A stretch of DNA of 64,000 bases from the NCBI RefSeq assembly GCF_031846245.1, contig NZ_JAVRIC010000002.1, positions 124,001 through 188,000 of the forward strand. The letters run 5' to 3'. The position numbers and the translations under genes are program-made. The DNA is from Banduia mediterranea. Lineage in GTDB: Bacteria > Pseudomonadota > Gammaproteobacteria > Nevskiales > Nevskiaceae. Positions 3,688-64,000 of this stretch are shown piece by piece. Position 1 is the stretch's first letter. Each line of letters starts with the position of its first letter. The notes beneath the pieces are model-generated. The model made no database searches. It had not been told where the DNA came from and worked only from the letters and a program-made list of their open reading frames with translations.

Positions 3688-3793
3688 GCGGCCACGAACA
3701 ACCGCCTTTCCGGCACCACAGCGAAGCCTGCAGGGCCTCAAAGGCATGATCGCCCCAAGGGCGCCGACTGCCGTTTTCTTTCACGGAGCCACA

Positions 3794-4111
3794 ATGAAAA
3801 TCACATACATCGACTACAACGGGACGCAACGGGACGTCGAAGTCGAGGCGGGCACCAACCTGCGCGACGCCGCACTGAACAACGCGATACCGGGCATCGA
3901 CGGCGACTGCGGCGGTGAATGCGCATGTGCCACCTGCCACGTTCGCGTGGACCCCGCCTGGCTGCCCAGACTGCCGACGATGGGTGATCAGGAAAAAATG
4001 ATGCTCGAGATGATGGACGACCGCGACGAACGGTCCCGCCTGGGTTGCCAGATCCACCTGAGCCCGGAGCTCGATGGCCTGGTCGTCCATACACCAATGG
4101 GGCAGCACTGA
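3794..4111 (+). CDS. [2Fe-2S] ferredoxin, putidaredoxin/adrenodoxin type, copy 1
   Basis: 105-residue electron carrier for the adjacent P450. Cluster ligands are Cys39, Cys45, Cys48 (CGGECACATC) and Cys85, the spacing of putidaredoxin. An extra Cys43 is present between the first two ligands. The ATG at 3794 is chosen over an upstream in-frame ATG at 3746 because homology starts with MKITYID and GGAG lies 7 bases before it. The protein is identical to copy 2. Its reductase must be supplied by a gene outside this window. Confidence 0.93.
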   Translation: MKITYIDYNGTQRDVEVEAGTNLRDAALNNAIPGIDGDCGGECACATCHVRVDPAWLPRLPTMGDQEKMMLEMMDDRDERSRLGCQIHLSPELDGLVVHTPMGQH

Positions 4112-4272
4112 AGCGCGCCCGGGACGGGGCTCTGTGCGCTTGAAACTGGCTGCTGAAAAAGCCCATCCCTGGACTGTTCGGCCCCAGCCCCACACTCGGT
4201 CAGGATAACGAAACGCTGGCCGCTCGCTGAGCATGCCCGCGCACCAGCGCAGCGCTTCCTGCTGCTGCACAC

Positions 4273-4288
4273 CCTATCCTTGGATAGG
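4273..4288. promoter_or_regulatory. Perfect inverted repeat upstream of CYP153 copy 2
   Basis: Exact repeat of the CCTATCC-TT-GGATAGG palindrome of copy 1, 141 bases before the second P450 start. Its retention means both copies carry the same presumptive operator and promoter. Confidence 0.55.
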
Positions 4289-4428
4289 TTCCGAAACGCC
4301 CCGCAGCGGCAATAATGTGAGCTGGGCACCGCGGCGATATGTCGGGACGCGGTCGCAACGCAGGTCCGCGTCGAACACGCACCTGCCCCCGAGGCCCCGA
4401 CCTTCAGTCACAGAAGCAGGAGAAGATC

Positions 4429-5691: not shown

Positions 5692-5698
5692 CCTGACC

Positions 5699-5724
5699 GG
5701 CGCCGGCCGCCGCCGGCCGGCGCC
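5699..5724 (+). promoter_or_regulatory. GC-rich intercistronic hairpin, copy 2
   Basis: Exact copy of the 10-base-stem hairpin at 3662-3687, again between the P450 stop and the ferredoxin gene. Confidence 0.55.
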
Positions 5725-5830
5725 GCGGCCACGAACAACCGCCTTTCCGGCACCACAGCGAAGCCTGCAGGGCCTCAAAGGCATGATCGCCCCAAGGGCG
5801 CCGACTGCCGTTTTCTTTCACGGAGCCACA

Positions 5831-6148
5831 ATGAAAATCACATACATCGACTACAACGGGACGCAACGGGACGTCGAAGTCGAGGCGGGCACCAACCTGC
5901 GCGACGCCGCACTGAACAACGCGATACCGGGCATCGACGGCGACTGCGGCGGTGAATGCGCATGTGCCACCTGCCACGTTCGCGTGGACCCCGCCTGGCT
6001 GCCCAGACTGCCGACGATGGGTGATCAGGAAAAAATGATGCTCGAGATGATGGACGACCGCGACGAACGGTCCCGCCTGGGTTGCCAGATCCACCTGAGC
6101 CCGGAGCTCGATGGCCTGGTCGTCCATACACCAATGGGGCAGCACTGA
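5831..6148 (+). CDS. [2Fe-2S] ferredoxin, putidaredoxin/adrenodoxin type, copy 2
   Basis: 105 residues, identical in protein sequence to the ferredoxin at 3794, with ligands Cys39, Cys45, Cys48 and Cys85. GGAG precedes ATG 5831. It would serve as electron donor for either P450 copy. It is the last gene of the + strand block; the LuxR-type regulator converges on it. Confidence 0.93.
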   Translation: MKITYIDYNGTQRDVEVEAGTNLRDAALNNAIPGIDGDCGGECACATCHVRVDPAWLPRLPTMGDQEKMMLEMMDDRDERSRLGCQIHLSPELDGLVVHTPMGQH

Positions 6149-6227
6149 AGCGCGCCCGGGACGGGGCTCTGTGCGCTTGAAACTGGCTGCTGAAAAAAGC
6201 CCATCCCTGGACTGTTCCAGGTCGCTC

Positions 6228-48540: not shown

Positions 48541-49914
48541 ATGAAACCCCTCTCCCTGATCGACAACATCATGCTGTTCATGGAGCGGCCTGCCCAACCG
48601 ATGCACGTCGGCGCACTGTGCCTGTTCAGACCGCCCGCGGACGCCCCGCCTGACTTCGTATCCCGGCTTGCCGAGCGGCTGCGGCAATCCACCACGACCG
48701 CGCCCCCGTTTAACCGTCGGGTAGTCCGGCATCTGGGCATCCGATTCTGGGAGGAATCGGCGGACTTCGACCTGGCGCAACACTTCGTGCACCTGGCCCT
48801 GCCCCAGCCGGGGCGCATCCGCGAGCTGCTGGCCATGATTTCCCGCATGCACGCGGCCCACCTCGACCGCGCTTATCCGCTGTGGCGGGCTTATCTCATC
48901 GAGGGGCTCGAGGACGGCCGCATCGCGCTCTACGCCAAGATTCACCATGCGATGGCGGACGGCGTGTCCGGCATCCGGCTGCTGACCCAGGCAATGGCGG
49001 CGAGCGCGGAAGATTCGCTGGCCATGCCAGCGCCCTGGGAATTGCACACGCCGAAAGGCGGACGGCGCAGCTTGCCTGTACCGACCTCGGCCCTGCGCAG
49101 CATGGAGGCACTGCGCGCCTTGACGCGCGAGGGTGTCACCGGCGTCCGGCCCGTCTTTGCGCGCATGAAGCAGACCCTGCGCGATCAGCGCGGCGGCCAC
49201 CCGGACTGCGTGGGCAGCCTGCAGGCACCGCCGAGCATCTTCAACCGGAACATCAGCGGCTCGCGGCGCTTCGCCGCACAGTCCTACGCGGCGGCACGGT
49301 TCAAGGCCGTGGCGCGCCGCTTCGACGCCACATCAAACGACGTTGTTCTCGCTGCCTGCGGCGGTGCACTGCGTCGCTACCTGCTGGCACTCGGCGAACT
49401 CCCGGACCGCCCTCTGATCGCCGCCGTACCCGTCTCCACGCGCCGCGACAACCGCGACTCCGGCAACGAGATCGCGTTCGCGCTCAGTCATCTGGGCACC
49501 CACATCGCCGAGCCCGCACCACGCCTGCGCGCGGTCAAGGCCTGCATGGACTACAACAAGGCCGTGCTTCGGACCCTCAAGCCCGCCCAGCTTCTGGCCT
49601 ATGAGGGCCTCATGTTCGCGCCCGGGGCGCTCAACCTGCTCACCGGCCTGCATCGCCAGCGGGCGATCGTCAATCTGGTGATTTCCTATGTCCGGGCTCC
49701 CCGCCGGCCTCTGTACTGGCAGGGCTGCGCACTCCACGGGCTTTACCCGGTGTCCCTGATCATCGACGGCGTCGCCCTCAACATCACGCTGACCGCGCGC
49801 GGCGATGCCCTCGACTTCGGGCTGATCGGCTGTCGCAAGACCCTCCCCCACCTGCAGCGGCTGCTCGACGATCTGGAGGCCAGCATCAGCGAGCTGGAAA
49901 CGGCCACGCCATGA
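48541..49914 (+). CDS. Wax ester synthase/diacylglycerol acyltransferase (WS/DGAT)
   Basis: 457 residues. Catalytic HHAMADG at 135-141 (HHxxxDG), PLWRAYLIEG before it, NISGSRRFA and, later, the ND motif region ATSNDVVLAACGGALR. It esterifies acyl-CoA with a fatty alcohol or diacylglycerol, producing storage wax or triacylglycerol. Typical of hydrocarbon-degrading marine and soil Gammaproteobacteria and of actinobacteria. It would draw on acyl-CoA and alcohols produced by the CYP153 and BVMO branches (inference). Confidence 0.93.
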   Translation: MKPLSLIDNIMLFMERPAQPMHVGALCLFRPPADAPPDFVSRLAERLRQSTTTAPPFNRRVVRHLGIRFWEESADFDLAQHFVHLALPQPGRIRELLAMISRMHAAHLDRAYPLWRAYLIEGLEDGRIALYAKIHHAMADGVSGIRLLTQAMAASAEDSLAMPAPWELHTPKGGRRSLPVPTSALRSMEALRALTREGVTGVRPVFARMKQTLRDQRGGHPDCVGSLQAPPSIFNRNISGSRRFAAQSYAAARFKAVARRFDATSNDVVLAACGGALRRYLLALGELPDRPLIAAVPVSTRRDNRDSGNEIAFALSHLGTHIAEPAPRLRAVKACMDYNKAVLRTLKPAQLLAYEGLMFAPGALNLLTGLHRQRAIVNLVISYVRAPRRPLYWQGCALHGLYPVSLIIDGVALNITLTARGDALDFGLIGCRKTLPHLQRLLDDLEASISELETATP

Positions 49915-50055
49915 CCGGCGGGCTGTCGCTTGCATTGCTCTCGCCAGTTGCGGTAGTTTATGCGTAGTGGCGCTCCGCACCACCTGTTCTCGGTCGCATG
50001 CGGACTGCATGAACGCGGTCGCGCCCGGACTTTGGCTTGCATCAGGAGATTCAAG

Positions 50056-50970
50056 ATGGCACTGGCAAACCGGCATATCGGCTACGACGAAGTCGAGCCG
50101 CGCGATCTGCGCTTCAACCTCAACACGGATGTACCCCGCTACTGGATCAACGGCGATCCCTGGACCACGCACTTCTTCAACTCCATCATGGCAGCGGTTC
50201 CCGACGGGGAGCGCTGGGTCATGCAGTGCGTGCGGCGCAGCCTCACCCAGCTCAAGGACGAGGCCGTACGCAAGGCCGGCATCGGCTTCATCAAGCAGGA
50301 GCACTACCACGCGCGCGAGCACGACGAAATGAATCATGCCCTCATCGAACAGGGCGTGCCGCTGGACGTGGTCGAACGCAACTTCAAGCTGATCCGCGCA
50401 GCGCTGGAGAGGCTCACGCCGCCGAGCATGCACCTGTCCATGATGGCCTCGTTCGAGCACTTCACGGCGACAATGGCCTCGGTCTTCATCGATCGCCCCG
50501 ACATGCTGGACGAATCCGATCCGCGCGTCGCGGCGATGCTGTACTGGCATTTCGTCGAGGAAACCGAGCACAAGTCGGTCACGTTCGACGTGTTCCAGGA
50601 CGCCGTCGGCAGCTACCCGCAGCGGGTTCTCGGCATGCTGATCGCGAGCGCCATCTTTCTGCCGATGGTGGAGAGCCACATGATCTACCTGGCCTGGAAG
50701 GACCGGCAGCTAAGCAACTGGCGATCGGCGCTGCGCTGCCTGAACACGCAGTTCGGCCGCAATGGCGTATTCACCCGACTGCTGGGTCACTACTTCCCTT
50801 ACTACAGCAAGAACTTCCATCCGTGGGACGACGACAATCGCACCAAGATTCACGTCTGGAAGAAGGCGTTCGCCGCCACCGGCGACACCCGGTTGGCCTA
50901 CGAAGCGTTCCGCCAGTCGGTAGGGCTGCCGGCACGGGCCGAGACCACCGCCGCAATGGCGGCGGCTTAA
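50056..50970 (+). CDS. PF10118-type predicted metal-dependent protein
   Basis: 304 residues. Metal-ligand-like clusters EHYHAREHDEMNH, FEHFTATMA and WHFVEETEHKS (E-x-x-H repeated in helices) suggest a ferritin-like di-metal site, so a hydrolase or di-iron oxidase is conceivable. The C-terminal half has a hydrophobic helix (MLIASAIFLPMVESHMIYLA). Family members are named predicted metal-dependent hydrolases but lack a known reaction. Good ribosome site (AGGAG) before ATG 50056. Confidence 0.78.
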   Translation: MALANRHIGYDEVEPRDLRFNLNTDVPRYWINGDPWTTHFFNSIMAAVPDGERWVMQCVRRSLTQLKDEAVRKAGIGFIKQEHYHAREHDEMNHALIEQGVPLDVVERNFKLIRAALERLTPPSMHLSMMASFEHFTATMASVFIDRPDMLDESDPRVAAMLYWHFVEETEHKSVTFDVFQDAVGSYPQRVLGMLIASAIFLPMVESHMIYLAWKDRQLSNWRSALRCLNTQFGRNGVFTRLLGHYFPYYSKNFHPWDDDNRTKIHVWKKAFAATGDTRLAYEAFRQSVGLPARAETTAAMAAA

Positions 50971-51086: not shown

Positions 51087-51839
51087 ATGCTCAAAAACTC
51101 GATCAACGTACTCTCTTCGCTAACTGCGTCCCTGGCCGAGGCCGGGCGTGGTGTCCGAATCGGCGCGACGGGTCCCCGCCCGGCAGAGCTGCTCGTTCTC
51201 TATGACCGGGAGAACTGCCCTTACTGCCGCCGCGTCCGGCAGACGCTGACCGAGCTCGACCTGGACGTTTTCATCAAGCCTTTCCCGCAGGGGGCCGAGC
51301 GATTCCGAACCGAGCTGCTGAAGCTGGGCGGCAGGCTTCAGGTTCCCTTCCTCGTCGATCCCAACACGGGCAGCGCGCTGTACGAGTCCGAGGACATCGT
51401 CGCCTACCTCCACCAGCATTACGGCGGCGCGGTGGCGTCGACGCGAAGGTTCTTCGACCGCGCCGGGTCGTTCGGCGCATCGCTGATACGGCTGCGCCAT
51501 GGATCGCGGCGGCGCGCGGCCGCCAACGCCCCGCCCGAGCCGCTCGAACTCTACAGTTTCGAGACCAGTCCCTTCGCGCGTATCGTTCGCGAGCGCCTCT
51601 GCGAGCTTGAGATACCCTACATCGTGCGCAATTGCGGACGAACGACAGGCTCGGACTGGATCCCGCCGCCGCTGCGCGCCCGTATGGCAGCCGATTACGC
51701 GCCAACACAGCGCAACCGGCGCCAGCTCGTGGAAAAAGCCGGCCGGGTCGCAGTCCCGTACCTGCTGGACCCGAACACCGGCGTCGAATTGTTCGAATCG
51801 GCTGCCATTACGGCATACCTCGAACGGACTTACGGCTGA
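51087..51839 (+). CDS. Tandem glutaredoxin/GST-N-like domain protein
   Basis: 250 residues with two thioredoxin-fold halves. The first has the redox motif CPYC (44-47) and VPFLVDPNTG; the second has SPFAR at the equivalent place and VPYLLDPNTG, so only the first half can do dithiol chemistry. Each half ends with an ESxxIxxYL helix. Found near lipid and P450 genes in related bacteria in my recollection; role unknown, perhaps glutathione-dependent handling of oxidised lipids. Confidence 0.8.
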   Translation: MLKNSINVLSSLTASLAEAGRGVRIGATGPRPAELLVLYDRENCPYCRRVRQTLTELDLDVFIKPFPQGAERFRTELLKLGGRLQVPFLVDPNTGSALYESEDIVAYLHQHYGGAVASTRRFFDRAGSFGASLIRLRHGSRRRAAANAPPEPLELYSFETSPFARIVRERLCELEIPYIVRNCGRTTGSDWIPPPLRARMAADYAPTQRNRRQLVEKAGRVAVPYLLDPNTGVELFESAAITAYLERTYG

Positions 51840-51967
51840 ATCGCGGGTGTGGAACGCCCGGAAACGACGAGGATGAGGCAGAATATGCGCGCAAGCACGC
51901 GGCGCTGCGATCGTCTGCTGCCCGCGGCGACACGGAAATCACACAGAATCGACAGGGAAGCGACATC

Positions 51968-52384
51968 ATGCAGAGATTGCAGATCATCGAAAACGTGCAG
52001 CTCCCGCCCGAGGAGATGTTCGCGAGGCTGGCGGACCACGAGAATCTCGGCAAGGCTCTGGGCGTGCCCGTCAAGCGGATCCGCGACGGAGAAGGCAGCG
52101 TCAACGGTGTGGGATCGGTCCGGACGATGGCCTTCTGGCCGCTGGATTTCGACGAGACCATCACTGCCTTCGATCCGCCCCGGCGGATCGAGTATTCGGT
52201 GAGCCGCGGTTCACCGTTGCGTCAGCATAGCGCGGTGATTCTCCTGTCTCCCCGCGGCGCCGGGACAGAAGTGAGCTGGAGCGTCAGTTTCGCCTCCGCG
52301 ATTCCCCTGGCCGGCCGGCTGCTCAGGATGGTGATGCGCCTTGCGCTCACGCACGGCATACGCAAGCTGGCGGCAAATCCATAG
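51968..52384 (+). CDS. SRPBCC (START-like) ligand-binding protein
   Basis: 138 residues, polyketide-cyclase/START fold: an N-terminal beta strand (LQIIENVQLPPEEMFARLAD), the central FDETITAFDPPRRIEY and a long C-terminal helix (LAGRLLRMVMRLALTHG). Such proteins bind hydrophobic ligands in a cavity. ATG 51968 has AGGGAAG upstream; the frame continuing from the glutaredoxin-like gene is not coding. Confidence 0.78.
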   Translation: MQRLQIIENVQLPPEEMFARLADHENLGKALGVPVKRIRDGEGSVNGVGSVRTMAFWPLDFDETITAFDPPRRIEYSVSRGSPLRQHSAVILLSPRGAGTEVSWSVSFASAIPLAGRLLRMVMRLALTHGIRKLAANP

Positions 52385-52425: not shown

Positions 52426-53235
52426 ATGGCTTTCAATGTCCGCAGCGTTATCGACGTGGTCGAGAAATTTCCCTACCGGATGGCTGAGCTGGTCGACCGC
52501 AGCGGCGCCAGCCGCGAAGCCGTGCGCTACTACATTCGCGAGGGCTTGCTGCCGCCGCCGCGGCGCACGGCCAGGAACATGGCTTGGTACTCTGACCGGC
52601 ACCTGGAGTTGATCAAGCTGATCCGGGTACTGCAGGAAGAACAGTTTCTGCCGCTCAAGGCGATCAAGTCACTGCTCAACGACGACCGCGAATTCGAGTT
52701 CACCCCGCGGCAGCGCGAGATCTTCGCCAGCGTCCGTGCCGAAATCGAAACGCAGGCGCGGCGTGAGATGCCGCGGCCGCCCGGCCGCAAGCTGGCGACC
52801 ACGATCGGCCTGAGCGACGAGGATTACAAGGCCATCGTGGCGATGGGGCTGGTGCGCAGCGGCGATGCCCCGCTGAGCCGCGACGAGGAGGAACTGCTTC
52901 GCCAGTTCGCGACGCTCAGACAAAGCGGCATGACCAAGGCACGCGGCTTCACACCGAATCACATCGAGGTTGTGCAGGCGGCTGCGGACCTCTTATTCGA
53001 TCAAGAGCTGCGCATATTTCAAGTGCTGCTGAAAAACCTGCGCGACGACGAAATCCCGGGCCTGATGGAACGCACGGTACCCGCCATCAATCGCATCTTC
53101 GGCCTGCTCCACGAACGCAAACTCCGCGCTTTCGTCTCTCGGTTTGCCGAGGAACGGTGGGGCACACCGACAAACGAAGATCGCCGGGAGCCGCCGCCTC
53201 GCCGAAAGCGTCGCACGGCCTCTTCTGCCAGCTGA
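52426..53235 (+). CDS. MerR-family transcriptional regulator
   Basis: 269 residues. N-terminal winged helix (MAELVDRSGASREAVRYYIR, then GLLPPPRRTARN with YSDRHLELIKLI) followed by a long helical dimerisation and sensor region; no Cys cluster, so it is not a metal sensor of classical type. Basic C-terminal tail. It could regulate the preceding lipid genes or the envelope cluster that converges on it. LiuR, the leucine/isovalerate regulator of Proteobacteria, is also MerR type but shorter. Confidence 0.85.
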   Translation: MAFNVRSVIDVVEKFPYRMAELVDRSGASREAVRYYIREGLLPPPRRTARNMAWYSDRHLELIKLIRVLQEEQFLPLKAIKSLLNDDREFEFTPRQREIFASVRAEIETQARREMPRPPGRKLATTIGLSDEDYKAIVAMGLVRSGDAPLSRDEEELLRQFATLRQSGMTKARGFTPNHIEVVQAAADLLFDQELRIFQVLLKNLRDDEIPGLMERTVPAINRIFGLLHERKLRAFVSRFAEERWGTPTNEDRREPPPRRKRRTASSAS

Positions 53236-53308: not shown

Positions 53309-54373
53309 CTATCGCCCCCCTGGAACAGCGATGCGGTGTATGCCGCGATCTGTCGCAGCATAAAGCTGGCCTTTCCAGAAGAGCAGTGCCGTAAAGACGG
53401 TGGACTGTTCCAGCCCCGGTTCCACCGGTGCAGGCAGAGGCACGGGATCCCTTTTCGGCGGCTCCTGCCCCCCCGCTTCCACCGGCACAGGCAGAGACAC
53501 GGGATCCCTTACCGACTCCAGAACCACCAGCGCAGCACCGCTGCCGGCGGCGGCCACGAAACGAGTCTCATTTAGCTGCGCAAGACCAAACAGTGACTTG
53601 TCCGTGCCAGTCTCCACGACCTGCCACTGGGGGTCGCGAAGATCGGCAACCTCGAAAGCATTGCCACGCATACCTACGGCCAGCAGTCCATGCGCGCCAA
53701 CCGCAACGGCCGCATACAAGGATCCTTCATAGGGCTCGGCAAGCACCGTCCAGGCGTGTGCATCCGGCGAGGTTGCGACCAGTCCTGCCTCGCCCACCAG
53801 CGCAAAGCTACCGTCTCCCAGCCGGAGCATCGCATTCATATGCGCCGCACGCTCGCTCAGCGCGGGATCAGCGAGATCCGCCCAGGTCTTCCCGCCATCG
53901 GCTGTGATGCGAAACAAACCGTAGGCACCGATTGCGTATCCCTTCCGCTGGTCGGCGAAGAACACATCCATGAACGGATCGCTTCCTCTCGGCCCGTACG
54001 CCTGAACGGTCCAGCTTATACCGCCGTCCGTCGTGCCGAGAATACTTGCATCATGCCCAACAGCCCAGCCGCGATCATCGTCTACGAAGTACACCGCATT
54101 GAGCATCGAATCTACCGGCGACTGGACCTGTGTCCATTCGACGCCGTCGTCCGACCGCAGAATAATGCCCCGCTCTCCGACAGCCACCATTGCCTGCCCC
54201 GCGGCCGCCAGATCGTTGATCTGCGCCTGCGTTGCAAGCGGCGCCATCTCTGCCGGTTTGGGCTCGCCGCCTTCAGCGGTATTCGACCAAGCGCGCCCCA
54301 CTCCGACGAGGAGTAGCGCCGCAAAAACCACTCGGCCGATTGCTGTACCCACAAACCTATTAACGAACATCAT
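53309..54373 (-). CDS. YCF48-like beta-propeller protein (envelope cluster)
   Basis: 354 residues. N-terminal signal/anchor (RVVFAALLLVGVGRAW), then repeated bladed units such as GWAVGHDASILGTTDGG and GYAIGAYGLFRITADGGKTW that are characteristic of YCF48/photosystem-stability-like and BNR repeats. Predicted periplasmic. In many Gammaproteobacteria this protein is encoded next to an RND transporter and DUF1302/DUF1329 proteins, as here, and is likely a periplasmic accessory. Near the C-terminus a 19-residue Pro-rich unit is duplicated (see repeat). Start ATG 54373 has GAGAG upstream. Confidence 0.85.
   Translation of the reverse strand: MMFVNRFVGTAIGRVVFAALLLVGVGRAWSNTAEGGEPKPAEMAPLATQAQINDLAAAGQAMVAVGERGIILRSDDGVEWTQVQSPVDSMLNAVYFVDDDRGWAVGHDASILGTTDGGISWTVQAYGPRGSDPFMDVFFADQRKGYAIGAYGLFRITADGGKTWADLADPALSERAAHMNAMLRLGDGSFALVGEAGLVATSPDAHAWTVLAEPYEGSLYAAVAVGAHGLLAVGMRGNAFEVADLRDPQWQVVETGTDKSLFGLAQLNETRFVAAAGSGAALVVLESVRDPVSLPVPVEAGGQEPPKRDPVPLPAPVEPGLEQSTVFTALLFWKGQLYAATDRGIHRIAVPGGR
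53420..53510 (-). repeat. 57-base-period tandem repeat inside the YCF48-like gene
   Basis: 34-base blocks at 53420 and 53477 differ at only a few bases. They encode two Pro/Val-rich segments (RDPVSLPVPVEAG and RDPVPLPAPVEPG), a linker between the propeller and the last strand. Confidence 0.75.
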
Positions 54374-54463
54374 GTCTTGCTCTCTTTCAGTGGGGTGCCG
54401 CTCGACAGCGGCAGGTCCTGGCACCGACACCCGGTACGGTCCGGCTGTAAAACGGATGTTGAT

Positions 54464-57076
54464 TTATGCCTGCGACGAGGTAGCCGGTTCAGAAACCTGC
54501 TTCTTACCTTCGCGCGGCCCTCGCAGCAAAAATGCGGCAAAGGACGGCATGATGAAAATCGCCGCTACAGCGTTTGCAATGAACATCACCGTCATCAGGA
54601 TTCCCATGTCCACCTGGAACTGCAGGCCGGACAGCATCCACGTGGCCACACTCGCCGACAAGGCCAAGGCCGTGAAGACCACCGCCTTGCCCGTCTGTCC
54701 GAGCGCGTCGGTGTATGCCTCTCGCATGGCCATACCGTGCTCCTTGACATTCTCTTCGAGCACGGAATAGATATAAATGCCGTAGTCGACGCCAATACCC
54801 GCGGCAAACGCAACCGTCGCAATGTTTGAAACCTTGACCCCGATTTCCAGGAACACCATCACGGAATACGTGAAGACCGACACCGCTGCAAGTGGCGCCA
54901 AGATGCAGATGACGCTCACAAGACTTCTGAACGACACCCACAGGCTCACCGCGATCGCGACGAACAGCCACAACAGTACGGTAAACTCGGTTTCCTCGAC
55001 CACATCGTTCGCGGCGGCCATGACTCCCACGTTGCCGGTCGCCAACTTGAAAGTGACTGGCGAGTCCTCCGGCATTTCAGCCACAAATGCCTCAAATGAC
55101 TCGATGACGGAATCGATGGTCTCTGCCTTGTGATCTGCTGTAAAGACGAACAGCGGCATTGCGCTGCAATCGGTATTCAACAGACCCGTCGAACTCGGAA
55201 ATGGCTGGACCGTCACCACCAGAGCACCGGGCTCTCTGGGAAGGACATTCCAGGCCGGGTTGTTTTCGTTGTAGGCATTGAAAACCATCTTCTGCATATG
55301 TGGCAGCGACAGCGTCGACTGCACACCAGGCGTATTCTCCATCCGCCATGCGAGACGGTCGATCATGCTCACGACGGAATAATCGATGCAGCCATCCGCC
55401 GAACCTTCTGCAATGATCTTCAGCACGTCCACACCGATCGTGAAATTGCTGACGATCGCATCTGTATCCAGGTTGTAGCGAGAGTCCGGCCGAAGCTCTG
55501 GCGTACCCTGGTGCAGCTCGCCAATCGCCAAGTCTCGATTGATGTACTCTGAAACACCCCAGGCCAAAGCCGTTGCCGCCAGTACGACTGCGGCCTGCCG
55601 CTTGAGAACCATATAGGATGCCACGCGCCAGAGGGGCTGCAGCGCCGCATCCCTGCGCAGCTGGTGCCGCTGGAACTTCTCCGGGTTACGTATCGGCACG
55701 AACGACAGCAGGCACGGCAGCAGCACCTTCTTGCAGATCACCACCGCGAACAGACCAAAGCAGGCGTTGATCGCCATTTCCTGCACGATGCCGATTGGAA
55801 TCAGCAGCAAGGTGCCGAAGCCGATGAAATTTGTCACCAGCGCGGTAAGTCCGGGGATGACCAGGCGCTTATAGGTTCCCATTGCCGCGTCGTAACTGTT
55901 CAGCCTCTTGTTCGCCGCCTCCAGAAGCCAGAAATTCGTGATCTGAATTCCATGAGAGACGCTGATCGCAATAACGAGGAACGGCACCAAAATCGCGAAC
56001 GGATCAAGTCCGTATCCGAACAGGTGCAGCATGCCAAGCTCCCAGACCACGGCCAGAAGACCACAAGACAATGGCAGAAAGGCCACCAGCCAGGAGCCGG
56101 TGTACATCCAGAGCACGATCCACACCAGCAGAATAGTCAGGCCGAAAAATCCCACCACTTCGGCTGCCTTGTCGCCGATGTCGCCAACAATCTTCGCGAA
56201 GCCGATGATGTGGATATCAACCGACTCGTTGTAATCCGGATTGTCGATCTCAGAGACTGCCAGGTCGCGTCCGCTCAACTCGGTAGTCGCAACATTGCCG
56301 CTTTCATCCTTGTACTGGACATCGACATCAGAGAAGTCGAACAGCAGCCCCCTCGGATCGCTGTACGTGGTTTTCACGACTTCCCCCGCCTCTAGCGGGG
56401 GAAGATCGCTCTTGAGCCGCAGTTCCCACATCTTGGGGCTGGTGAAACGCTGCCTGATCTGCTCGAGTCTATCCGCCGTTTCGAAATAATCGAGCTTCTC
56501 GTCGGTGACTGGATCGCGCTCCAACAGCTCGCCGAAAATCATCGCGCCGCGCTCGTCGTTGGCGACCAGGCGGCCGACCACGCCCGCCTTTTCCACGTTG
56601 CGCCGGACTCCTTCGAGCATTTCCGGGGTGGGGGTGAAGTCCGCCGGCACCACGTTGCCGCCCCGGAAGCCCTCCTCCACGACCTCCAGGTAGCGCACAT
56701 CGGGCGTCATGATCGAGCTCACTCGGGAGCGATCCATGCCGGGCAGAAAGAACATGGCATCCGTCGCTTTGCGCAGCGTATCCATGAACGCAGGCTCATA
56801 GATATCGCCGTTGCCCTCCTTCTGCATCACGGCGAACAGCACGAGGTTGGCCCCTCCGAATTCGCGCTGGTACTCTTTGAACACTTCGATGTACGGATGC
56901 CCGAGCGGTAGCTGCTTCTCGAAGCCCGCGTCCAACCGCAGCTGGGTCGCCTGCCAGCCGAGAAACAGCGTGGCCAGCGTGAGCACAATGAGCAGTCGCG
57001 CCCGCTTGTGGAAAATGATCGGTACGGTGACATCCACATACCATTTCGCAAAACCGCCTTTGACCTCACCGTGCAT
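54464..57076 (-). CDS. RND/MMPL-family exporter (envelope cluster)
   Basis: 870 residues. Two homologous halves, each with one leading span, a large periplasmic loop and a block of five spans; PFLVIAISVSHGIQ and FAAGIGVDYGIYIYSVLEEN are the proton-relay-type spans of the MMPL/HAE2-like branch. ATG 57076 with GGAG 7 bases upstream is preferred to the adjacent TTG. Would drive transfer of a hydrophobic substrate across or out of the inner membrane, with the YCF48 protein 90 bases downstream. Base composition is visibly less GC-rich than the catabolic operons. Confidence 0.9.
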   Translation of the reverse strand: MHGEVKGGFAKWYVDVTVPIIFHKRARLLIVLTLATLFLGWQATQLRLDAGFEKQLPLGHPYIEVFKEYQREFGGANLVLFAVMQKEGNGDIYEPAFMDTLRKATDAMFFLPGMDRSRVSSIMTPDVRYLEVVEEGFRGGNVVPADFTPTPEMLEGVRRNVEKAGVVGRLVANDERGAMIFGELLERDPVTDEKLDYFETADRLEQIRQRFTSPKMWELRLKSDLPPLEAGEVVKTTYSDPRGLLFDFSDVDVQYKDESGNVATTELSGRDLAVSEIDNPDYNESVDIHIIGFAKIVGDIGDKAAEVVGFFGLTILLVWIVLWMYTGSWLVAFLPLSCGLLAVVWELGMLHLFGYGLDPFAILVPFLVIAISVSHGIQITNFWLLEAANKRLNSYDAAMGTYKRLVIPGLTALVTNFIGFGTLLLIPIGIVQEMAINACFGLFAVVICKKVLLPCLLSFVPIRNPEKFQRHQLRRDAALQPLWRVASYMVLKRQAAVVLAATALAWGVSEYINRDLAIGELHQGTPELRPDSRYNLDTDAIVSNFTIGVDVLKIIAEGSADGCIDYSVVSMIDRLAWRMENTPGVQSTLSLPHMQKMVFNAYNENNPAWNVLPREPGALVVTVQPFPSSTGLLNTDCSAMPLFVFTADHKAETIDSVIESFEAFVAEMPEDSPVTFKLATGNVGVMAAANDVVEETEFTVLLWLFVAIAVSLWVSFRSLVSVICILAPLAAVSVFTYSVMVFLEIGVKVSNIATVAFAAGIGVDYGIYIYSVLEENVKEHGMAMREAYTDALGQTGKAVVFTALALSASVATWMLSGLQFQVDMGILMTVMFIANAVAAIFIMPSFAAFLLRGPREGKKQVSEPATSSQA

Positions 57077-57429
57077 CAAATTTCTCCAGGTACCCGAAAA
57101 ACAATAGAAGTACTAACGGCCCTGCCGCCAAGCGGGCACCACCCCGCAGAATGAATCCGCTGCGGCATGGCCGTTCCCCTCACCCACCGTTCGCATTCGC
57201 GAGCGGTCCCCTCTCCCGCAAGCGGGCGAGGGGAGGTCGGCATCACGCCGCAGCGTGATTCACGTTAAATCTGCGCAAGTTAAATCTACGCAAGGGTCGA
57301 CAGCACTGAAGCCAGTATGACGTTCAAGGGTGACGCAAGCGTGGGATCAGATCCTGCGCTTAGCGCCACTGCTTTACGTGAGCTTTGTCCTACTGCCATC
57401 AATATTCATGCGACGCCGATGCAGCGCGA
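57077..57429. other. Intergenic region upstream of RND gene
   Basis: 353 bases between the RND start and the lipoprotein stop. Holds REP-like copy B (57115-57267); the remaining 160 bases show a short direct repeat (TTAAATCTGCGCAAG, TTAAATCTACGCAAG at about 57265 and 57281) and no gene. Confidence 0.6.
57115..57267 (-). repeat. REP-like intergenic repeat, copy B
   Basis: Inverted copy of 33911-34066. Same two hairpins, including one around GCATTCGCGAGCGG. Located between the RND gene and the lipoprotein gene, where it could stabilise or insulate transcripts. Confidence 0.8.
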
Positions 57430-58122
57430 TCACCCTCCATCATTGACGCAGACCTCAAGCACGCGCAACGCATTGAGCACCTGCAGGCCTCCGCCGAAAT
57501 CCAGTCGTACCTCATCGAAAGGCGCGCCGACCTTGACCCCGACAAATCGCGACGAAGCTACCGATGGCGTGAGCAGGAGGGACGGAAGGTCCAGCAGACT
57601 CAAGGCAATGGGAACATTGGCTTCTTCGAGCGCCGTCGATTCCTGTTCCTCGCCGTTGAGGAACGTGGTGATAGTGGCATTCTGGTTGAGGGCAATCGTC
57701 AGCGGAATCGCGTCGTCTTCGCCCGCGACGGAGAACGCGACCATCGCGCCGATCGGATGCACGCGCGCCGTGTCGAACACGGACACGTAAGCCGTCCCGG
57801 CCACCGCCACAGGCACATTGAGCGTTGCCCCCGTCGCGGGATCCTCGTCGACAACCGCCTCGGCATCCATGACGGAGCACAGCACACAGACGCCGGCAAT
57901 GCCGCTCTCCAGCAAAGCCCGCGGCGCCTGCAGGGGCTCATACGCGTTGCCTGGGGCGCACTGCTCCGGCACCGACGCAAACCCGGAGCCAGCGCCGCCG
58001 TTGGGACTGTCCGGATCGCTGCAGCCCGCCAGTGATGCGCCAAGGATAGCGGCGGCGACAAGGCTTACCGAGCTCCAGGACCGCCGCTGCGGCGCCGGTG
58101 AACACAAATTCATATTCGTCAT
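57430..58122 (-). CDS. DUF1302-associated lipoprotein a, unknown function
   Basis: 230 residues. Signal with lipobox SLAGC (Cys34). The mature part has a Cys-x-x-Cys (CVLC) in a segment ESGIAGVCVLCSVMDAEAVV, then a beta-rich body (AVAGTAYVSVFDTARVHPIG, ITTFLNGEEQES). It shares this layout and many residues with lipoprotein b at 62764; both are encoded directly after a DUF1302 gene. I know no family name. ATG 58122 has GGGGGAACG upstream, 15 bases after the DUF1302a stop. Probably attached to outer or inner membrane facing the periplasm and part of the same machine. Confidence 0.75.
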   Translation of the reverse strand: MTNMNLCSPAPQRRSWSSVSLVAAAILGASLAGCSDPDSPNGGAGSGFASVPEQCAPGNAYEPLQAPRALLESGIAGVCVLCSVMDAEAVVDEDPATGATLNVPVAVAGTAYVSVFDTARVHPIGAMVAFSVAGEDDAIPLTIALNQNATITTFLNGEEQESTALEEANVPIALSLLDLPSLLLTPSVASSRFVGVKVGAPFDEVRLDFGGGLQVLNALRVLEVCVNDGG

Positions 58123-58137
58123 GTGTCGTTCCCCCGA

Positions 58138-60675
58138 TCAGAACTGGTACTTGATGTAGAAGCCGAGATTGTCTCGATCAGCCATCAGGTTATTGTGGCC
58201 TGCCCCCCCGTAAAGGTTGTAGGCGACGTTGAAGGACAGCGCCTTTTCGTAGCGGACCTCCACGACCGTGGTCAGCGAGTAGCGTCCCTCCACGAAGTTG
58301 AAGTGCGGCGCCGGCGAGTTGCCGTGGATGTCGTGCTGCCAGAGAAACAGCGGGGAAATGCTGATTGACGGTAAGACAGACTCGTACAGAATGCGGCCAA
58401 CGACCTTGTAACCCCAGGAAAACGCGTCCGCGAAGGCATCGCGCGGCGCCTGCCAGGGGTTGAAGCGGATACCGTCCGGCCCGATGGTGCAGGCGATGTT
58501 GGTGGAACAGGCCTGGCGCGAGCCGTCGGCGCCACTGCCATCGGCGCCAGCCGAGGCGTGCGTGTATGCGGTGAGCGGACCCTCGATCTGCAACTCGTCG
58601 AAGTCCGGCATGTTCAGCACATGTGTGGCGGCGACTTCGTAGATGAAGAGCACCTGGTCGGCGCCGATCAACTTCGAAGGCCAGTCAGAGCGGCTGTACA
58701 GTCGCGTCGCGCCGAGATTGTACTGCAGCACGTCGAATTCTTCCCAGCCCCGGATCCGCTGATTCGGCCCTGGTTCATCGCCCAGACTTCCGCCGCGATA
58801 CGGCACGAGAAAGCTGGGAAACGCACGCGCGGGACTGGGCACCCCGGCGAGCAGCAGGAACGCGGTATCGTTGAAATACGGGTTGCCATTGGCATCCGTC
58901 GCATCGCCGGTGTCGTAGACGTAGTACTGCCCCGTCGTGTTCTGCCCGTTGCCCCCCGGAACGCCCGGACTGTTCTCGTCGTAACCCACCGCCGCGACCG
59001 TGCCGTCGCAGCCGTCGCTGGGGTCATTGCAATGACCCAGCGTCGGCTGCATTGCCGCGAACAGCACATCGACCAGCGAGACCTGCAAGGGCAGATTGGG
59101 TCGATAGGCGACTTCACCCTGGAAGGAATAATCGCCATAGGTGGTGTTGAAGCTGAGCCCGAACATCTTGAGATCTTCGGGGTAGGTGAGCTGCACATTG
59201 GCCGTATCGAGCGGGATGATTTCGCTGTCGGGCTTGCCCGGCTGCGGGACCAGCAGGTTCAGCACACCCGTAACGGCATCCAGTGGCGTGCCATCGATAC
59301 CTAGCGTGTTCAGAACCTCCGGCCGCGCGCTCAGAATGCCCGCGAGGTCCGTCACGGCCTGTAACGGGGCGCCCGGGTAACCGTTGGCCACGAGATTCAG
59401 GTTGGGACAGAGCGTGAGGATATCAAACGTATTGTTGGCATTGCGCCCCTCCGGGTTGCCGGCCGCCCGCATGCAGCTTGCGTTGGTGGAATAGCCGTCC
59501 ACATACGGCAGCTTGGAATGGTAGTTCATGAAGTAGAATCCGAACTCGGTGCCGTAGTTCAGGTCCGAGAAGTACTTCAGGCTGATACCATACTCCCCGC
59601 CGTCCCGCGCCTCGTCATCGCGCAGCCGGCCCACGCTCAGCGTCGTCATCGAAACCAGGCCGAACGGATTGGAGATCCTGGTTCCCATCTGATCGAGGTC
59701 GTCGGTCGCCTGGCCGAAGCTGGCGTTCAGACGATCCGGACCCAGATTGTTCGTTCCCGCGTCGAGAAACGAATAAAAAGTCCCCGGCGCAGGGATCTCC
59801 ACCGGCCTCCATTCGAAGGCGTAGTGCGCCTGCAGGCTCAGCGAGCTCGTCAGGTTGACGAAGACATTCGCCATGTTGACCGGAATGAACAAGTCCTCAA
59901 GCAGGGCGTTGCCCAGCCGGTAGATATTGTTGGCATTGACCGGATTGGCCTGCGACAGACTGTTGACGATCGCCGCCGTACTTTCACCCCAGTTGACCAC
60001 CTGCTTGCCGACGCGTAGCAACACGTCCCTATCCATCAGGGTGAATGGAACGGTGAGATGCAGATCGAGCAGCTCGTAAAAAAGATACTCGTCCGCAATG
60101 TTGTCCGGGCGCTTCTCCCGCACCAGGGTGCCACTGGTGAGTACATCGCCGTAGTAGCGGTTTCCGTACGGGTCTCCGCGGGTGGCCACCTGGTCGTAGT
60201 TGTCCGGCGTCGTCTTGTTCGGGTAGGTCTCGACAAAGTCGTAGTTGACCGGGTCGTAGAGGCCGCGCCCGCGCACGAAAAGCTCCATATCCCCAAACCC
60301 GAACTTGACGTCGGTGTTCAGCACAATCGGAGCCTGGACGATGTCGCCCTTGTCGTAGTTGAGATTGCCGTTGTCGAAATTCATCGACGCCTGCCCCGGC
60401 GCGTCGCGCAGGTGCGCCGCGGGATAGCTTTGGTCGCGGATGACGCCCTGACACAGCTGATAGGTTCCAGCACAAACGTCTGGGTTCAGGTTGGACTTGC
60501 CGACAAGATAATCGGCGCGGTCGTGCAACCGCCATTGCGCCCCAGCGGTCAACGTGTTGTTCAAAATGGCGTTGATGTCCTCGCCAAACAAATCAAAGCT
60601 GAACTCGCGTGCGCTGCCGCTCGCTGACCACAGTGCCAGGCTCGCGGCGCACGCGATTATCCACTTGTTCCTCAT
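58138..60675 (-). CDS. DUF1302 outer-membrane protein a
   Basis: 845 residues with a cleavable signal peptide (CAASLALWSASGSAR). Early motif LNNTLTAGAQWR and MNFDNGNLNYDKGDIVQ are typical of DUF1302; GKQVVNWGES is the strongest family marker. The chain ends in IKYQF, the aromatic C-terminus recognised by the BAM machinery, so a beta-barrel in the outer membrane is likely. It is longer than the 500-650 residues I associate with the family, the extra length falling in Gly/Asn/Asp-rich loops (about 390-720). Partner genes: lipoprotein a downstream, DUF1329 upstream. Confidence 0.88.
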   Translation of the reverse strand: MRNKWIIACAASLALWSASGSAREFSFDLFGEDINAILNNTLTAGAQWRLHDRADYLVGKSNLNPDVCAGTYQLCQGVIRDQSYPAAHLRDAPGQASMNFDNGNLNYDKGDIVQAPIVLNTDVKFGFGDMELFVRGRGLYDPVNYDFVETYPNKTTPDNYDQVATRGDPYGNRYYGDVLTSGTLVREKRPDNIADEYLFYELLDLHLTVPFTLMDRDVLLRVGKQVVNWGESTAAIVNSLSQANPVNANNIYRLGNALLEDLFIPVNMANVFVNLTSSLSLQAHYAFEWRPVEIPAPGTFYSFLDAGTNNLGPDRLNASFGQATDDLDQMGTRISNPFGLVSMTTLSVGRLRDDEARDGGEYGISLKYFSDLNYGTEFGFYFMNYHSKLPYVDGYSTNASCMRAAGNPEGRNANNTFDILTLCPNLNLVANGYPGAPLQAVTDLAGILSARPEVLNTLGIDGTPLDAVTGVLNLLVPQPGKPDSEIIPLDTANVQLTYPEDLKMFGLSFNTTYGDYSFQGEVAYRPNLPLQVSLVDVLFAAMQPTLGHCNDPSDGCDGTVAAVGYDENSPGVPGGNGQNTTGQYYVYDTGDATDANGNPYFNDTAFLLLAGVPSPARAFPSFLVPYRGGSLGDEPGPNQRIRGWEEFDVLQYNLGATRLYSRSDWPSKLIGADQVLFIYEVAATHVLNMPDFDELQIEGPLTAYTHASAGADGSGADGSRQACSTNIACTIGPDGIRFNPWQAPRDAFADAFSWGYKVVGRILYESVLPSISISPLFLWQHDIHGNSPAPHFNFVEGRYSLTTVVEVRYEKALSFNVAYNLYGGAGHNNLMADRDNLGFYIKYQF

Positions 60676-61109
60676 CTCGATCTCCCCTCAGAGTGTCTCG
60701 TCTCTCACACCAGTAACCTTGCACAGCCTCAGAAGAACAGCCTCGACCGTCAGTAGGCAACGCCAGGAGCGCTGCTCGCCATTTATACTTTATTGAATTC
60801 TTATGGTTTATTGACTTCTGGAGGTCACTCGCCCTTCTGCGAGGCGTGCCCCAAACATTCCCAGCCGCTGCAAACGGAGCCTGGGCCACCACCACATCCA
60901 CAAAATTACGTCGACGAAAGGTTTCCGTCAAGCGACGAACGGGGGTTGCCTGTCGGACGACCGCCGTATTGACCAGCGTCTTGCAAAGCCACCCCAGCCG
61001 ACCGTGACCGTAGCCCCCTTGGACTGCCCGCCTCACATAGATTGCGGCATGAGCAACCCAAGGGGGATCTGACCCTTAGCTGGTGACCAGCACTTGCAGC
61101 CTTGGTGTC
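60676..61109. other. Intergenic region between DUF1329 and DUF1302a
   Basis: 434 bases. Contains a candidate promoter at 60903-60931 for DUF1302a and an AT-rich patch at about 60780-60825. A 147-codon open frame crosses it on the - strand but has no homology I recognise and runs into the DUF1302 signal region, so I do not call it. Confidence 0.55.
60903..60931 (-). promoter_or_regulatory. Candidate sigma-70 promoter for DUF1302a
   Basis: On the - strand TTGACG (60931-60926), 17-base spacer, TAATTT (60908-60903). About 230 bases upstream of the DUF1302a start, giving a long leader. Confidence 0.45.
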
Positions 61110-62471
61110 CTACTTGGCCGTTCTTTGCTGAATGCTTGAGGGTTCGAAATAGCTGTCCCTGTAGTCAACCGACCCGTCGTTAGGCTGGTCCTCATTGACC
61201 ATCGCAGTCACAAAATAACGTCCGCTGTTGAAGTGATAGATCACTTCCGGAATCGTCGTGCTGGCCATGACATTCGAGGCGTAGATCAGATGCCCCTCTT
61301 GAAACTGCATTAGCTGCCCTTCGTGGTCATAGTTGTCGCGCGCCACGATATTCCAGCTGTCCTCGTCAATATAGAAGCGGATCTTCGCGAAGGTGTGGCG
61401 CAGGTTCGGCAGGTTTTCGGCCTCGACCACCCAGACGCGGTGCAGTTCGTAGCGCGGCAGGTCCGGGTTGACGTGCTTGGGGCGGGCAATGTCGGCGTAC
61501 TTGATCTTGTTGCCGGCGATCTTGTAGGAGTTATAGGGAATGTACATCTCGCGCTTGCCAAGCAGCTTCCACGTGTAGCGCTCGAGCACGCCGTTGAACA
61601 TGTCCACCTGGTCGTAGAACTGGTGGCCATCCGTGCCCTCGTAGGGGTTGTCGCAGCACACCGCCGGCGCTCGACGGATACGCTTGATCGCGGGTGAGTA
61701 AAGCCAGGCCGAGCGGCCCTGCGGCCCCGTGCCGGCTTTTTCGTGGGCGAGAATGAAGGTGCCCGCCAGACGCGGCGGCGCCACCGTCTCGGAAATGTAC
61801 TTGATCGACGGCACACCGGGCTTGAGCTCCAGCGGCGGATCAATTTGCGGATTGTTGTAGTAAAACTTGACCTCTTCGATGATCTTCGTCATCGTGAACG
61901 TGCCGTCTAGCTGCACGATCATCTGGTTGTTGTATCGCTCGAACGCGTTGCCGCGATACTTCATCTTGTGATTCCAGATCGGCTCGGCGCCCGACTGCGG
62001 AATCGGGAAAGGTATACCCAAGAATGCGCCCTTCGGCTCGTCTACGGACTCAAGTGTTGCTTTGGCAGCGTTGACAATCGAGCCATCGAGAATTTCCTTG
62101 GGGAAGTTCGCGATGCGGTGCGTCGGATAGACATTCATCCGGTAGGAGTCTGGATAGCGCTTCAGCAACTCCTTGTGCCCCTCGGTCATCTTGTCCGCGT
62201 ACTTCTCCAGGTTGGCCGCGCTGATGGTGAACAACGGTTTTTCCGATTCTATGTCGGGATAGCTCGGCCAGAAACCCTTGAGCGGACCATTCTGCGGCCT
62301 TGGCTTCCATTCAGGGATGGAACCATCTTCGTTCCCCGCCCTGATTGCGCCCACCGGCGTCAGTTCCTTTCCGAGCTTGGCTACTTCCTCGGGGGGAGCC
62401 TTGGCCATGGCCGGCAACGCGACCGCCAAGCTCAGCGATGCCCAACATACACTCTTGAGTATTCTCCGCAC
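61110..62471 (-). CDS. DUF1329 family periplasmic/outer-membrane protein
   Basis: 453 residues from a GTG start with GAGGAG 8 bases upstream; the in-frame extension to 62558 lacks a ribosome site. Signal peptide VCWASLSLAVALPAMAKA. Family hallmarks: AGNEDGSIPEW near residue 55, KYPDSYRMNVYPTHR-like segment (RYPDSYRMNVYPTHR) and WLYSPAIKRIRRAP, with CCDNPYEGTDGH. The fold resembles LolA/LolB-like lipid carriers in my understanding of DUF1329; a role as a carrier of hydrophobic molecules through the periplasm to the DUF1302 barrel is inferred. Confidence 0.88.
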   Translation of the reverse strand: MRRILKSVCWASLSLAVALPAMAKAPPEEVAKLGKELTPVGAIRAGNEDGSIPEWKPRPQNGPLKGFWPSYPDIESEKPLFTISAANLEKYADKMTEGHKELLKRYPDSYRMNVYPTHRIANFPKEILDGSIVNAAKATLESVDEPKGAFLGIPFPIPQSGAEPIWNHKMKYRGNAFERYNNQMIVQLDGTFTMTKIIEEVKFYYNNPQIDPPLELKPGVPSIKYISETVAPPRLAGTFILAHEKAGTGPQGRSAWLYSPAIKRIRRAPAVCCDNPYEGTDGHQFYDQVDMFNGVLERYTWKLLGKREMYIPYNSYKIAGNKIKYADIARPKHVNPDLPRYELHRVWVVEAENLPNLRHTFAKIRFYIDEDSWNIVARDNYDHEGQLMQFQEGHLIYASNVMASTTIPEVIYHFNSGRYFVTAMVNEDQPNDGSVDYRDSYFEPSSIQQRTAK

Positions 62472-62763
62472 GAAACAATCTCCTCTCTTGAGATAATTGC
62501 GCATTAAGGTAATTGCGTAATGGCAATGATTGCAACTGTCCGCCCCCTCACGCAACACGCTTCACGCAAGCGGCAAGCCTGACAGCTTTGGTTTCTACCG
62601 AATGTTTGATAGGGACGCTTTTTTACGCGAACCACGCGCGAAACGCAATAGGCCGCCCGGCAGCCGGCCTCTCGGCGTCAAGCGGAGATCCACACCTCTG
62701 CCGTGCGTTGTGCGCGTTCCCGCAACCCTCCACCGGGACCCGCTGGTGAGTGGCCTACGGCTT
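62472..62763. other. Intergenic region between lipoprotein b and DUF1329
   Basis: 292 bases. Includes the direct repeat above and a hairpin AGGCCG-N9-CGGCCT (62650-62670) that may end the DUF1302b-lipoprotein b transcript. No gene seen. Confidence 0.5.
62491..62517. promoter_or_regulatory. 11-base direct repeat upstream of DUF1329
   Basis: AGATAATTGCG and AGGTAATTGCG, 16 bases apart, just 20 bases before the GTG start. Could be a regulator site or part of the promoter; TTGCAA further upstream is a possible -35. Confidence 0.4.
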
Positions 62764-63477
62764 CTACGAGCCGCCGCTCAGACAGATGGCATACACCCGC
62801 AGGCTGTTGAGCAGGTTGACGGCGCCGCCGAAATCGAGGCGCACCTGGTCGAACTCGCGCCCGGCGACCAGGCCGACATAGCGCGTGGCCAGGTTGGGCG
62901 CAGGCGGCAGCAACGCCGGCACGTTCAGGATTTGCAATGCGATGGGCGGGCTGCCTTCGGAAGCGCGCGTTGACTCCTGTTCCTGGCCACCCAGAAAGGT
63001 CGTGATCGTGGTCTGCTGCCCGACGGCCACCGTCAGCGGCACTGCGCCGTCGTCTGCGGCCACCAGAAAGCCAACCTGTGCACCCGCGGGATTGACCCGC
63101 GCGCTGTCAAACACCGAGACGAAAGCCGTGCCCGCCAGCCCCAGCCCGACCTGCATCGTCGCATGGTTTTGCAGATCCTGGTCGACCACTGCGTTTGCAT
63201 CGACGACCCGGCAGCCGACGCAACCGCCGGCGATTCCCGACTCGACAACCGCGCGCGGCGCCAGCAATGGCGCAAACTGCCGTCCGGGTGCGCAGGACTC
63301 GGGCGCCGAGATCGAAGTGCTGCCATGTGTGGGGTCGTCCGGGTTGTTGCCGCAGCCCGCCAAGGCTGCCGACAACGCGAGCGCCCCCGCCTGAAGCAAC
63401 CGGTGTGTGGGCGTGTGCGCCGACGGTGGCCGGCTGTTGTCGCTCGGTACGCTTGGCCAAGTATGCATGTTCATCAT
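62764..63477 (-). CDS. DUF1302-associated lipoprotein b, unknown function
   Basis: 237 residues. Lipobox ALAGC with Cys42 after an unusually long N-region. Mature part parallels lipoprotein a: CAPGRQFAPLLAPRAVVESG, Cys-x-x-Cys as CVGC, VVDANAVVDQD, TAFVSVFDSARVNPAG and ITTFLGGQEQEST. The gene begins three bases after the DUF1302b stop, so translation is coupled; no ribosome site is visible. Same order and orientation as the DUF1302a/lipoprotein a pair, which marks the two pairs as duplicates. Confidence 0.75.
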   Translation of the reverse strand: MMNMHTWPSVPSDNSRPPSAHTPTHRLLQAGALALSAALAGCGNNPDDPTHGSTSISAPESCAPGRQFAPLLAPRAVVESGIAGGCVGCRVVDANAVVDQDLQNHATMQVGLGLAGTAFVSVFDSARVNPAGAQVGFLVAADDGAVPLTVAVGQQTTITTFLGGQEQESTRASEGSPPIALQILNVPALLPPAPNLATRYVGLVAGREFDQVRLDFGGAVNLLNSLRVYAICLSGGS

Positions 63478-63480
63478 CGC

Positions 63481-64000
63481 TCAGAATTGATACTTGATGT
63501 AGAAGCCGAGATTGTCGCGGTCCGCCAACAGGTTGTTGGCGCCCGCGCCGCCATAGAGGTTGTAGCTGATGTTGAACGACAGTGCCTTCTCGTAGCGCAT
63601 TTCGATCACCGACGTCAGCGAGTACCGACCTTCCACGAAGTTGAAGTGCGGCGCCGGCGAGTTGCCGTGGATGTCGTGCTGCCACAGAAAGAGCGGCGCG
63701 ATGCTGATTGACGGCCAGACCGACTCGTAAAGAATGCGTGCGACGACGCGATAGCCCCAGGAGAAGGCATCGGCGAAGGCATCTCTTGGCGCTTGATAGG
63801 GATTGAACCTGATGCCATCCGGGCCAACCGTGCAGGCGATGTTGGTGGAGCAGGCCAACCGGGAACCGTCGGCACCGCTGCCCTCGGCGCCGGCGGAGGC
63901 ATGGGTATAGGCGGTCAGCGGTCCTTCGATCTGCAACTCATCGAACGCGGGGAAATCGAGTACATGGGTCGCAGCCAACTCGTACACCATGAGCACCTGG
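63481..64000 (-). CDS. DUF1302 outer-membrane protein b (partial, C-terminal 173 residues)
   Basis: The window edge cuts the gene; the visible end is colinear with DUF1302a and differs at about 19 of 167 aligned residues by eye. It keeps FLWQHDIHGNSPAPHFNF and the terminal IKYQF barrel signal. It is therefore a close paralogue within the same locus. The start lies beyond base 64000. Confidence 0.88.
   Translation of the reverse strand, partial: QVLMVYELAATHVLDFPAFDELQIEGPLTAYTHASAGAEGSGADGSRLACSTNIACTVGPDGIRFNPYQAPRDAFADAFSWGYRVVARILYESVWPSISIAPLFLWQHDIHGNSPAPHFNFVEGRYSLTSVIEMRYEKALSFNISYNLYGGAGANNLLADRDNLGFYIKYQF

Follow-up and report, generated by a model that had tools for sequence, protein, structure and literature searches.

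A rare lipoprotein gene follows two DUF1302 barrel genes in a transport-type cluster of Banduia mediterranea

Gene clusters for DUF1302, DUF1329 and RND-type proteins occur in hydrocarbon and lipid degraders, are poorly understood, and the direction in which they move their cargo is unsettled. In Pseudomonas putida, PP_0765 (DUF1302) and PP_0766 (DUF1329) are required for the use of Tween 20 and were modelled as a complex; DUF1329 was modelled in another complex with PP_2018/PP_2019 (PMC10866462). Deletion of ameABCD in Castellaniella defragrans lowered monoterpene tolerance and raised dye accumulation in de-energised cells (PMC6394551). A further source describes a "nanopod" cluster, with a DUF1329 protein from Delftia acidovorans and a DUF1329/YCF48/MMPL set in a benzene-degrading strain of Desulfobacterota (PMC13101534, citing Shetty et al.). 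Here, a cluster of this type is described from Banduia mediterranea (Nevskiaceae), in a stretch of 64,000 nucleotides (contig NZ_JAVRIC010000002.1, positions 124,001 to 188,000; "the window"). The locus carries an AmeABCD-like set in one cluster: DUF1302, DUF1329 (two copies), an RND/MMPL transporter and a YCF48/BNR protein. Each of its two DUF1302 genes is followed by a gene for a lipoprotein (LpA and LpB). We favour, with about equal belief and doubt, the reading that a lectin-like lipoprotein of the outer membrane was recruited as an accessory to the two DUF1302 barrels, and not as a bridge to the RND pump.

That both DUF1302 genes are trailed by a lipoprotein gene at a distance of 3-15 bases had been proposed in a sequence-only reading of the window, and the coordinates confirm it. 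LpA starts 3 bases after the stop codon of DUF1302-A, at a junction that looks coupled (TGAGCGATGATG); LpB starts 15 bases after that of DUF1302-B, and this gap contains a GGGGGA stretch. The two lipoproteins are 54% identical across 198 amino acids (aa) (E 3e-71), so their likeness is not due to chance, and all elements of the layout ascribed to them (lipobox, CxxC, ESGIAG, VSVFD and TTF) were found. What had been described as a duplicated pair is, however, a repeated unit of three genes, DUF1329-DUF1302-lipoprotein, the second DUF1329 gene lying just upstream, beyond the window. The gene order on the minus strand of the contig is PF10118-like hydrolase, SDR, alpha/beta hydrolase, DUF1329-A, DUF1302-A, LpA, DUF1329-B, DUF1302-B, LpB, RND, YCF48. 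The assignments as DUF1302, DUF1329, MMPL/RND and YCF48 were upheld by Pfam. The members of the cluster are as follows.

53309-54430, minus strand: YCF48/BNR-type periplasmic protein (PF14870, E 1.7e-17).
54464-57079, minus strand: RND/MMPL inner-membrane transporter, HAE3-like, 871 aa (PF03176, E 5e-18; best NCBIfam match TIGR00921 at 115.9 bits, under the cut-off of 351.9).
57430-58122, minus strand: LpB, 230 aa, with signal peptide, lipobox LAGC (Cys34), a linker to about residue 53 and a C-terminal domain (54-230) with the cysteines C55, CxxC (C79/C82) and C225.
58138-60675, minus strand: DUF1302-B, long-form outer-membrane barrel, 845 aa (PF06980, E 7.6e-143).
61110-62558, minus strand: DUF1329-B, periplasmic LolA-like protein (PF07044, E 1.1e-119; LolA_like, 7.4e-9).
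62764-63477, minus strand: LpA, 237 aa, lipobox LAGC (Cys42), same domain as LpB.
63481-64000, minus strand: C-terminal part of DUF1302-A; the whole gene extends to about 66054 (L005:13482-16055).
About 66171-67817, outside the window: DUF1329-A (L005:16172-17818).

A profile of the lipoprotein subfamily, run against 85 genomes from the order, gave scores above 380 bits for only four genes, all of them behind DUF1302; the next match was at 93 bits. The four genes belong to three genomes: Banduia mediterranea (twice), Solimonas sp. SE-A11 and an Algiphilus metagenome-assembled genome. All of their clusters have the order DUF1329-DUF1302-lipoprotein-RND-YCF48. A scan of a species-level genome collection returned the subfamily in the same two other organisms only.

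The histories of barrel and lipoprotein were compared with four sequences each, by a site bootstrap on four taxa and by FastTree. DUF1302-B shows 86% identity with its Solimonas counterpart, or 87% in a second comparison, and 77% with DUF1302-A; between DUF1302-A and the Algiphilus counterpart, identity is 80%. The corresponding lipoprotein identities are 65% (B-Solimonas), 60% (A-Algiphilus) and 51% (A-B). Grouping B with Solimonas and A with Algiphilus is backed by 51 parsimony-informative sites (versus 9 and 5) for DUF1302 and by 17 (versus 1 and 2) for the lipoprotein, and was recovered in 1000/1000 site bootstraps for either protein. In a FastTree phylogeny of DUF1302 with outgroups, B and Solimonas group with support 1.0, and A joins that pair at 0.68. 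Because both proteins give one branching order, the sequences indicate two old pairs that were inherited together and that diverged earlier than these genera split. A recent tandem duplication was rejected, as each DUF1302 and each lipoprotein is nearer to the copy of another genus than to its neighbour. DUF1329 showed the same split in just 730/1000 site bootstraps and seems to track the pairs less strictly. A fixed barrel-lipoprotein pair is likely, because the closest lipoproteins always come directly after DUF1302 (four of four genes, three genera) and share its tree topology. To this extent the proposed partnership stands, and two diverged pairs also agree with the suggestion that they serve two substrates.

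It had further been proposed that the lipoprotein is a component of the DUF1302/DUF1329/RND/YCF48 system. As a general statement, this was not sustained. DUF1302 is present in 58/58 genomes of the taxonomic family, often in 10-20 copies (up to 36 candidate places were counted in one genome). Among 40 further DUF1302-centred stretches, YCF48 comes next after DUF1302 in 20 cases, for the most part with the arrangement RND-DUF1329-DUF1302-YCF48, and an adjacent lipoprotein of this branch was found in 0 of the 40, on which the general role was rejected. Nor does another lipoprotein of note occupy this slot within 700 bases at the other DUF1302 loci. The next-closest DUF1302 (66% identical, genome G033) lies in a syntenic cluster that retains genes for the alpha/beta hydrolase, DUF1329, PF10118 hydrolase, GST, SRPBCC, MerR and acyl-CoA (coenzyme A) enzymes; the stretch fetched around it has no lipoprotein, RND or YCF48 gene. 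Since the usual operon and this relative lack it, the lipoprotein is an accessory and not a universal component. A different DUF1302 duplication is seen in other genomes of the family (L114, L127 and L135), where the order is RND-DUF1329-DUF1302-YCF48-DUF1302 and the second barrel, after YCF48, has no lipoprotein.

These loci also bear on the idea that the lipoprotein docks the barrel to the RND/DUF1329 part. As an adaptor, it would sit on the periplasmic face, which is where default Lol sorting leaves proteobacterial lipoproteins; its fixed place by DUF1302, in one cluster with RND and YCF48, and its co-inheritance with DUF1302 would also fit. The operons of the 20 relatives, however, have no such gene, so an adaptor is unnecessary, and the DUF1302-DUF1329 complex was predicted without a lipoprotein (PMC10866462). 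The transport core is taken to function without one, because none is described for the set of P. putida (PMC10866462) or for AmeABCD of C. defragrans (PMC6394551). In addition, most members of the domain family occur away from DUF1302, either standing alone or forming the C-terminal tip of a larger lipoprotein. We found no evidence for docking; tip position and predicted lectin-like fold point to ligand or surface binding instead, and we consider an adaptor unlikely.

The lipoproteins carry a domain of about 170 aa, a lipoprotein tip that is newly outlined here. It is nameless in Pfam and NCBIfam, and searches of these two and of PHROG matched no family. The profile match spans about 170 aa, including the CxxC, TTxLxG and PFDxxRL stretches. 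It matches 52/58 genomes of the taxonomic family and only 5/369 genomes of a class sample and 5/398 of a phylum sample, own genome included. The domain is carried by short lipoproteins, by the products of tandem lipoprotein genes and by proteins 500-1200 aa long. Nor is the layout new within this genome, as the same domain occurs three further times in it, in two proteins elsewhere; these two, the larger hosts examined here, both carry Big_2 domains. The domain is C-terminal in 81/83 domain-bearing open reading frames (ORFs). A simple lipobox rule is satisfied by 68/83 of these, versus 206/2016 (about 10%) of all ORFs of at least 200 aa. Residue +2 of the lipobox is G, A or S in 58/68 and Asp in 1/68; LpB (LAGC-S) and LpA (LAGC-G) have no Asp there. 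Of 101 unique domains, 92 have the equivalents of C79 and C82, 9 have neither, and 0 have just one; because the two cysteines appear or vanish together, the CxxC pair fits a disulfide.

If the lipoprotein were a partner of the barrel, homologues were expected next to DUF1302 genes. The family as a whole lies mostly away from them, whereas the closest subfamily is always beside one. This abundance, mostly unlinked to DUF1302, together with the rarity of the linked branch, would suit a mere passenger, i.e. an ordinary adhesin-type lipoprotein that does no work with DUF1302. A passenger would, however, hardly have stayed behind DUF1302 across three genera and in either copy of a duplicated unit, nor lie 3-15 bases from DUF1302 in B. 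mediterranea and share its tree; we regard this as quite unlikely. Other members are arranged differently. In genus g5, members form tandem arrays, two to four genes or domains long, with no DUF1302 nearby (L053, L056, L057, L059 and L063). Outside the Pseudomonadota, a plasmid protein of Parabacteroides distasonis, of the Bacteroidota (P0001; L112:3809-8416), contains the domain four times (best 5e-22, for this single sequence; 0 hits in 200 shuffles as control); it sits amid hypothetical genes and has no Pfam or NCBIfam match. No relatives were found in viral contigs, and none convincing, by sequence, among solved structures.

A second type of barrel is involved in other genera. In genus g9, an OmpA-type barrel gene is followed by a diverged member that lacks the CxxC pair. 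Nine genomes, judged by coordinates or fetched loci, have such a member at a distance of 1.5-2 kb from DUF1302; in only some of these was the OmpA-type gene checked. Elsewhere, the OmpA-lipoprotein pair has no DUF1302 nearby. In L106, L108, L109 and L090 (about 9-12 kb, several genera), an OmpA-type barrel, Pfam-confirmed in L106 and L108, precedes a CxxC-less member. The repeated association with outer-membrane barrels, OmpA-type included, as well as the place right behind DUF1302 and the inheritance with it pair by pair, would be in line with a lipoprotein that folds with or plugs the barrel, as LptE does with LptD. Against this, the close DUF1302 (66%) and 20 others do without it, and the linker-and-tip architecture of the family is unlike a plug. 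Such a role seems improbable to us.

Structure prediction failed for the full-length lipoprotein (predicted local distance difference test, pLDDT, 42.5; unusable). The isolated domain, modelled from four sequences, reached a mean pLDDT of 50 and a predicted template modelling score of 0.54. With this model, Foldseek returned CBM32/CBM29/APC10-like folds (best E 3.4e-3, probability 1.0) in a list rich in galactose-binding-like domains. VIA-align, where unmatched models usually score 7 to 8, gave Z 10.7 over 120 residues at 2.8 A to the fucolectin domain of lectinolysin, a fucose lectin, followed in its top list by galactose-binding/lectin-like and carbohydrate-binding folds. The domain is thus likely a lectin/discoidin-like (galactose-binding-like) beta-sandwich, as far as the model goes. 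That it binds sugar is our guess from the predicted lectin-like fold.

The recruited accessory that we favour might operate as follows. The C-terminal domain of about 170 aa would be a lectin/discoidin-like tip, anchored in the outer membrane. In this bacterial family, such domains generally form the tip of lipoproteins, some behind Big_2 domains, and one branch would have become a dedicated DUF1302 accessory, translated directly after the barrel. The lipid would anchor the lipoprotein beside the barrel, and the linker of about 20 residues would keep the domain near it. There, the domain would most likely bind a glycan, a lipid head group or an amphipathic substrate at the barrel mouth, and so capture or release cargo, or fix glycan or lipid. 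The core of RND, DUF1329, DUF1302 and YCF48 would operate without it. The two diverged pairs would use one RND/YCF48 set, probably with different ligands. The same domain after an OmpA-type barrel in other genera speaks for this reading. Several points weigh against it. The fold match comes from a model with a mean pLDDT of only 50; the Pfam search gave no PF00754 match to the lipoprotein domain; and a profile comparison of the lipoprotein domain with F5/8 type C domains of relatives (hhalign probability 0.3) showed no similarity. Contact between lipoprotein and DUF1302 is putative, and the lipoprotein may face the cell surface or the periplasm. The direct pair is present in only three genomes, probably from one recruitment event. 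PF00754 had no match anywhere in the own genome. A SlipAM search of this genome, bearing on surface exposure, was empty and, lacking any control signal, uninformative.

The cluster converges with genes on the opposite strand.

49960-50970, plus strand: PF10118 hydrolase.
51087-51839, plus strand: GST.
About 51917-52384, plus strand: SRPBCC-like protein.
52426-53235, plus strand: MerR regulator.

The MerR and SRPBCC genes are kept in both lipoprotein-bearing relatives. Promoter and terminator scans for the operon ends gave counts no better than chance. A wax ester synthase/DGAT (WS/DGAT) is encoded nearby at 48541-49914 (TIGR02946, 434 bits, above cut-off). The wax-ester export that it suggests was rejected, as no close WS/DGAT lies in the stretches fetched beside the lipoprotein clusters of the other two genomes. 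The window also carries acyl-CoA dehydrogenase and carboxylase (CoA-catabolism) genes. At 2201-6217, there are two tandem P450-ferredoxin cassettes (P450 at 2392-3654 and 4339-5691; ferredoxin-like at 3746-4111 and 5783-6148), adjoined by a MalT/LuxR-type regulator (6318-9026). At 98.8% identity across 1980 bp, this duplication is recent; we guess that the P450s are CYP153. WS/DGAT, P450-ferredoxin pairs and acyl-CoA genes fit hydrocarbon or lipid metabolism. From the WS/DGAT, P450 and CoA-catabolism genes as context, the cluster may transport hydrophobic compounds.

Among known systems, barrel and surface lipoprotein are encoded by adjacent, co-inherited genes in TbpA/TbpB and SusC/SusD, where the lipoprotein catches the ligand. 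The likeness to the DUF1302-lipoprotein pair is by analogy only and lies in the adjacent, co-inherited genes; we know of no sequence relation, nor of DUF1302 as a TonB-dependent protein. A full counterpart for hydrophobic compounds, in which DUF1302 would have a dedicated, surface-facing, lectin-like lipoprotein that chooses the ligand, in two versions on one RND/YCF48 set, is rather unlikely. With discoidin domains (F5/8 type C, CBM32, CBM47), the low-confidence model aligns across the whole domain (Z 10.7), and cysteines lie near both domain ends, but the lipoprotein domain has no PF00754 sequence-profile match. Its VVDxDxxTxAT stretch presumably resembles the DGN..T stretch of discoidin. 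The nanopod cluster likewise links DUF1329, YCF48 and MMPL genes to hydrocarbon metabolism; its description reports no protein from the present lipoprotein family (PMC13101534). AmeABCD (PMC6394551) and PP_0765/PP_0766/PP_2018/PP_2019 (PMC10866462) are closest: they share DUF1302, a LolA-like DUF1329, an RND-type transporter and a further periplasmic protein, and are tied to hydrophobic compounds (monoterpenes, Tween 20). Unlike the locus described here, they have one DUF1302 per set, another gene order and no described lipoprotein partner. A rare accessory that keeps to the barrel, as this lipoprotein does, points to DUF1302 as the part that bears specificity, and provides a handle for finding the ligand. 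To this known transport system the locus adds a feature that is real, small and rare, and that draws on a broad lipoprotein domain family without a name.

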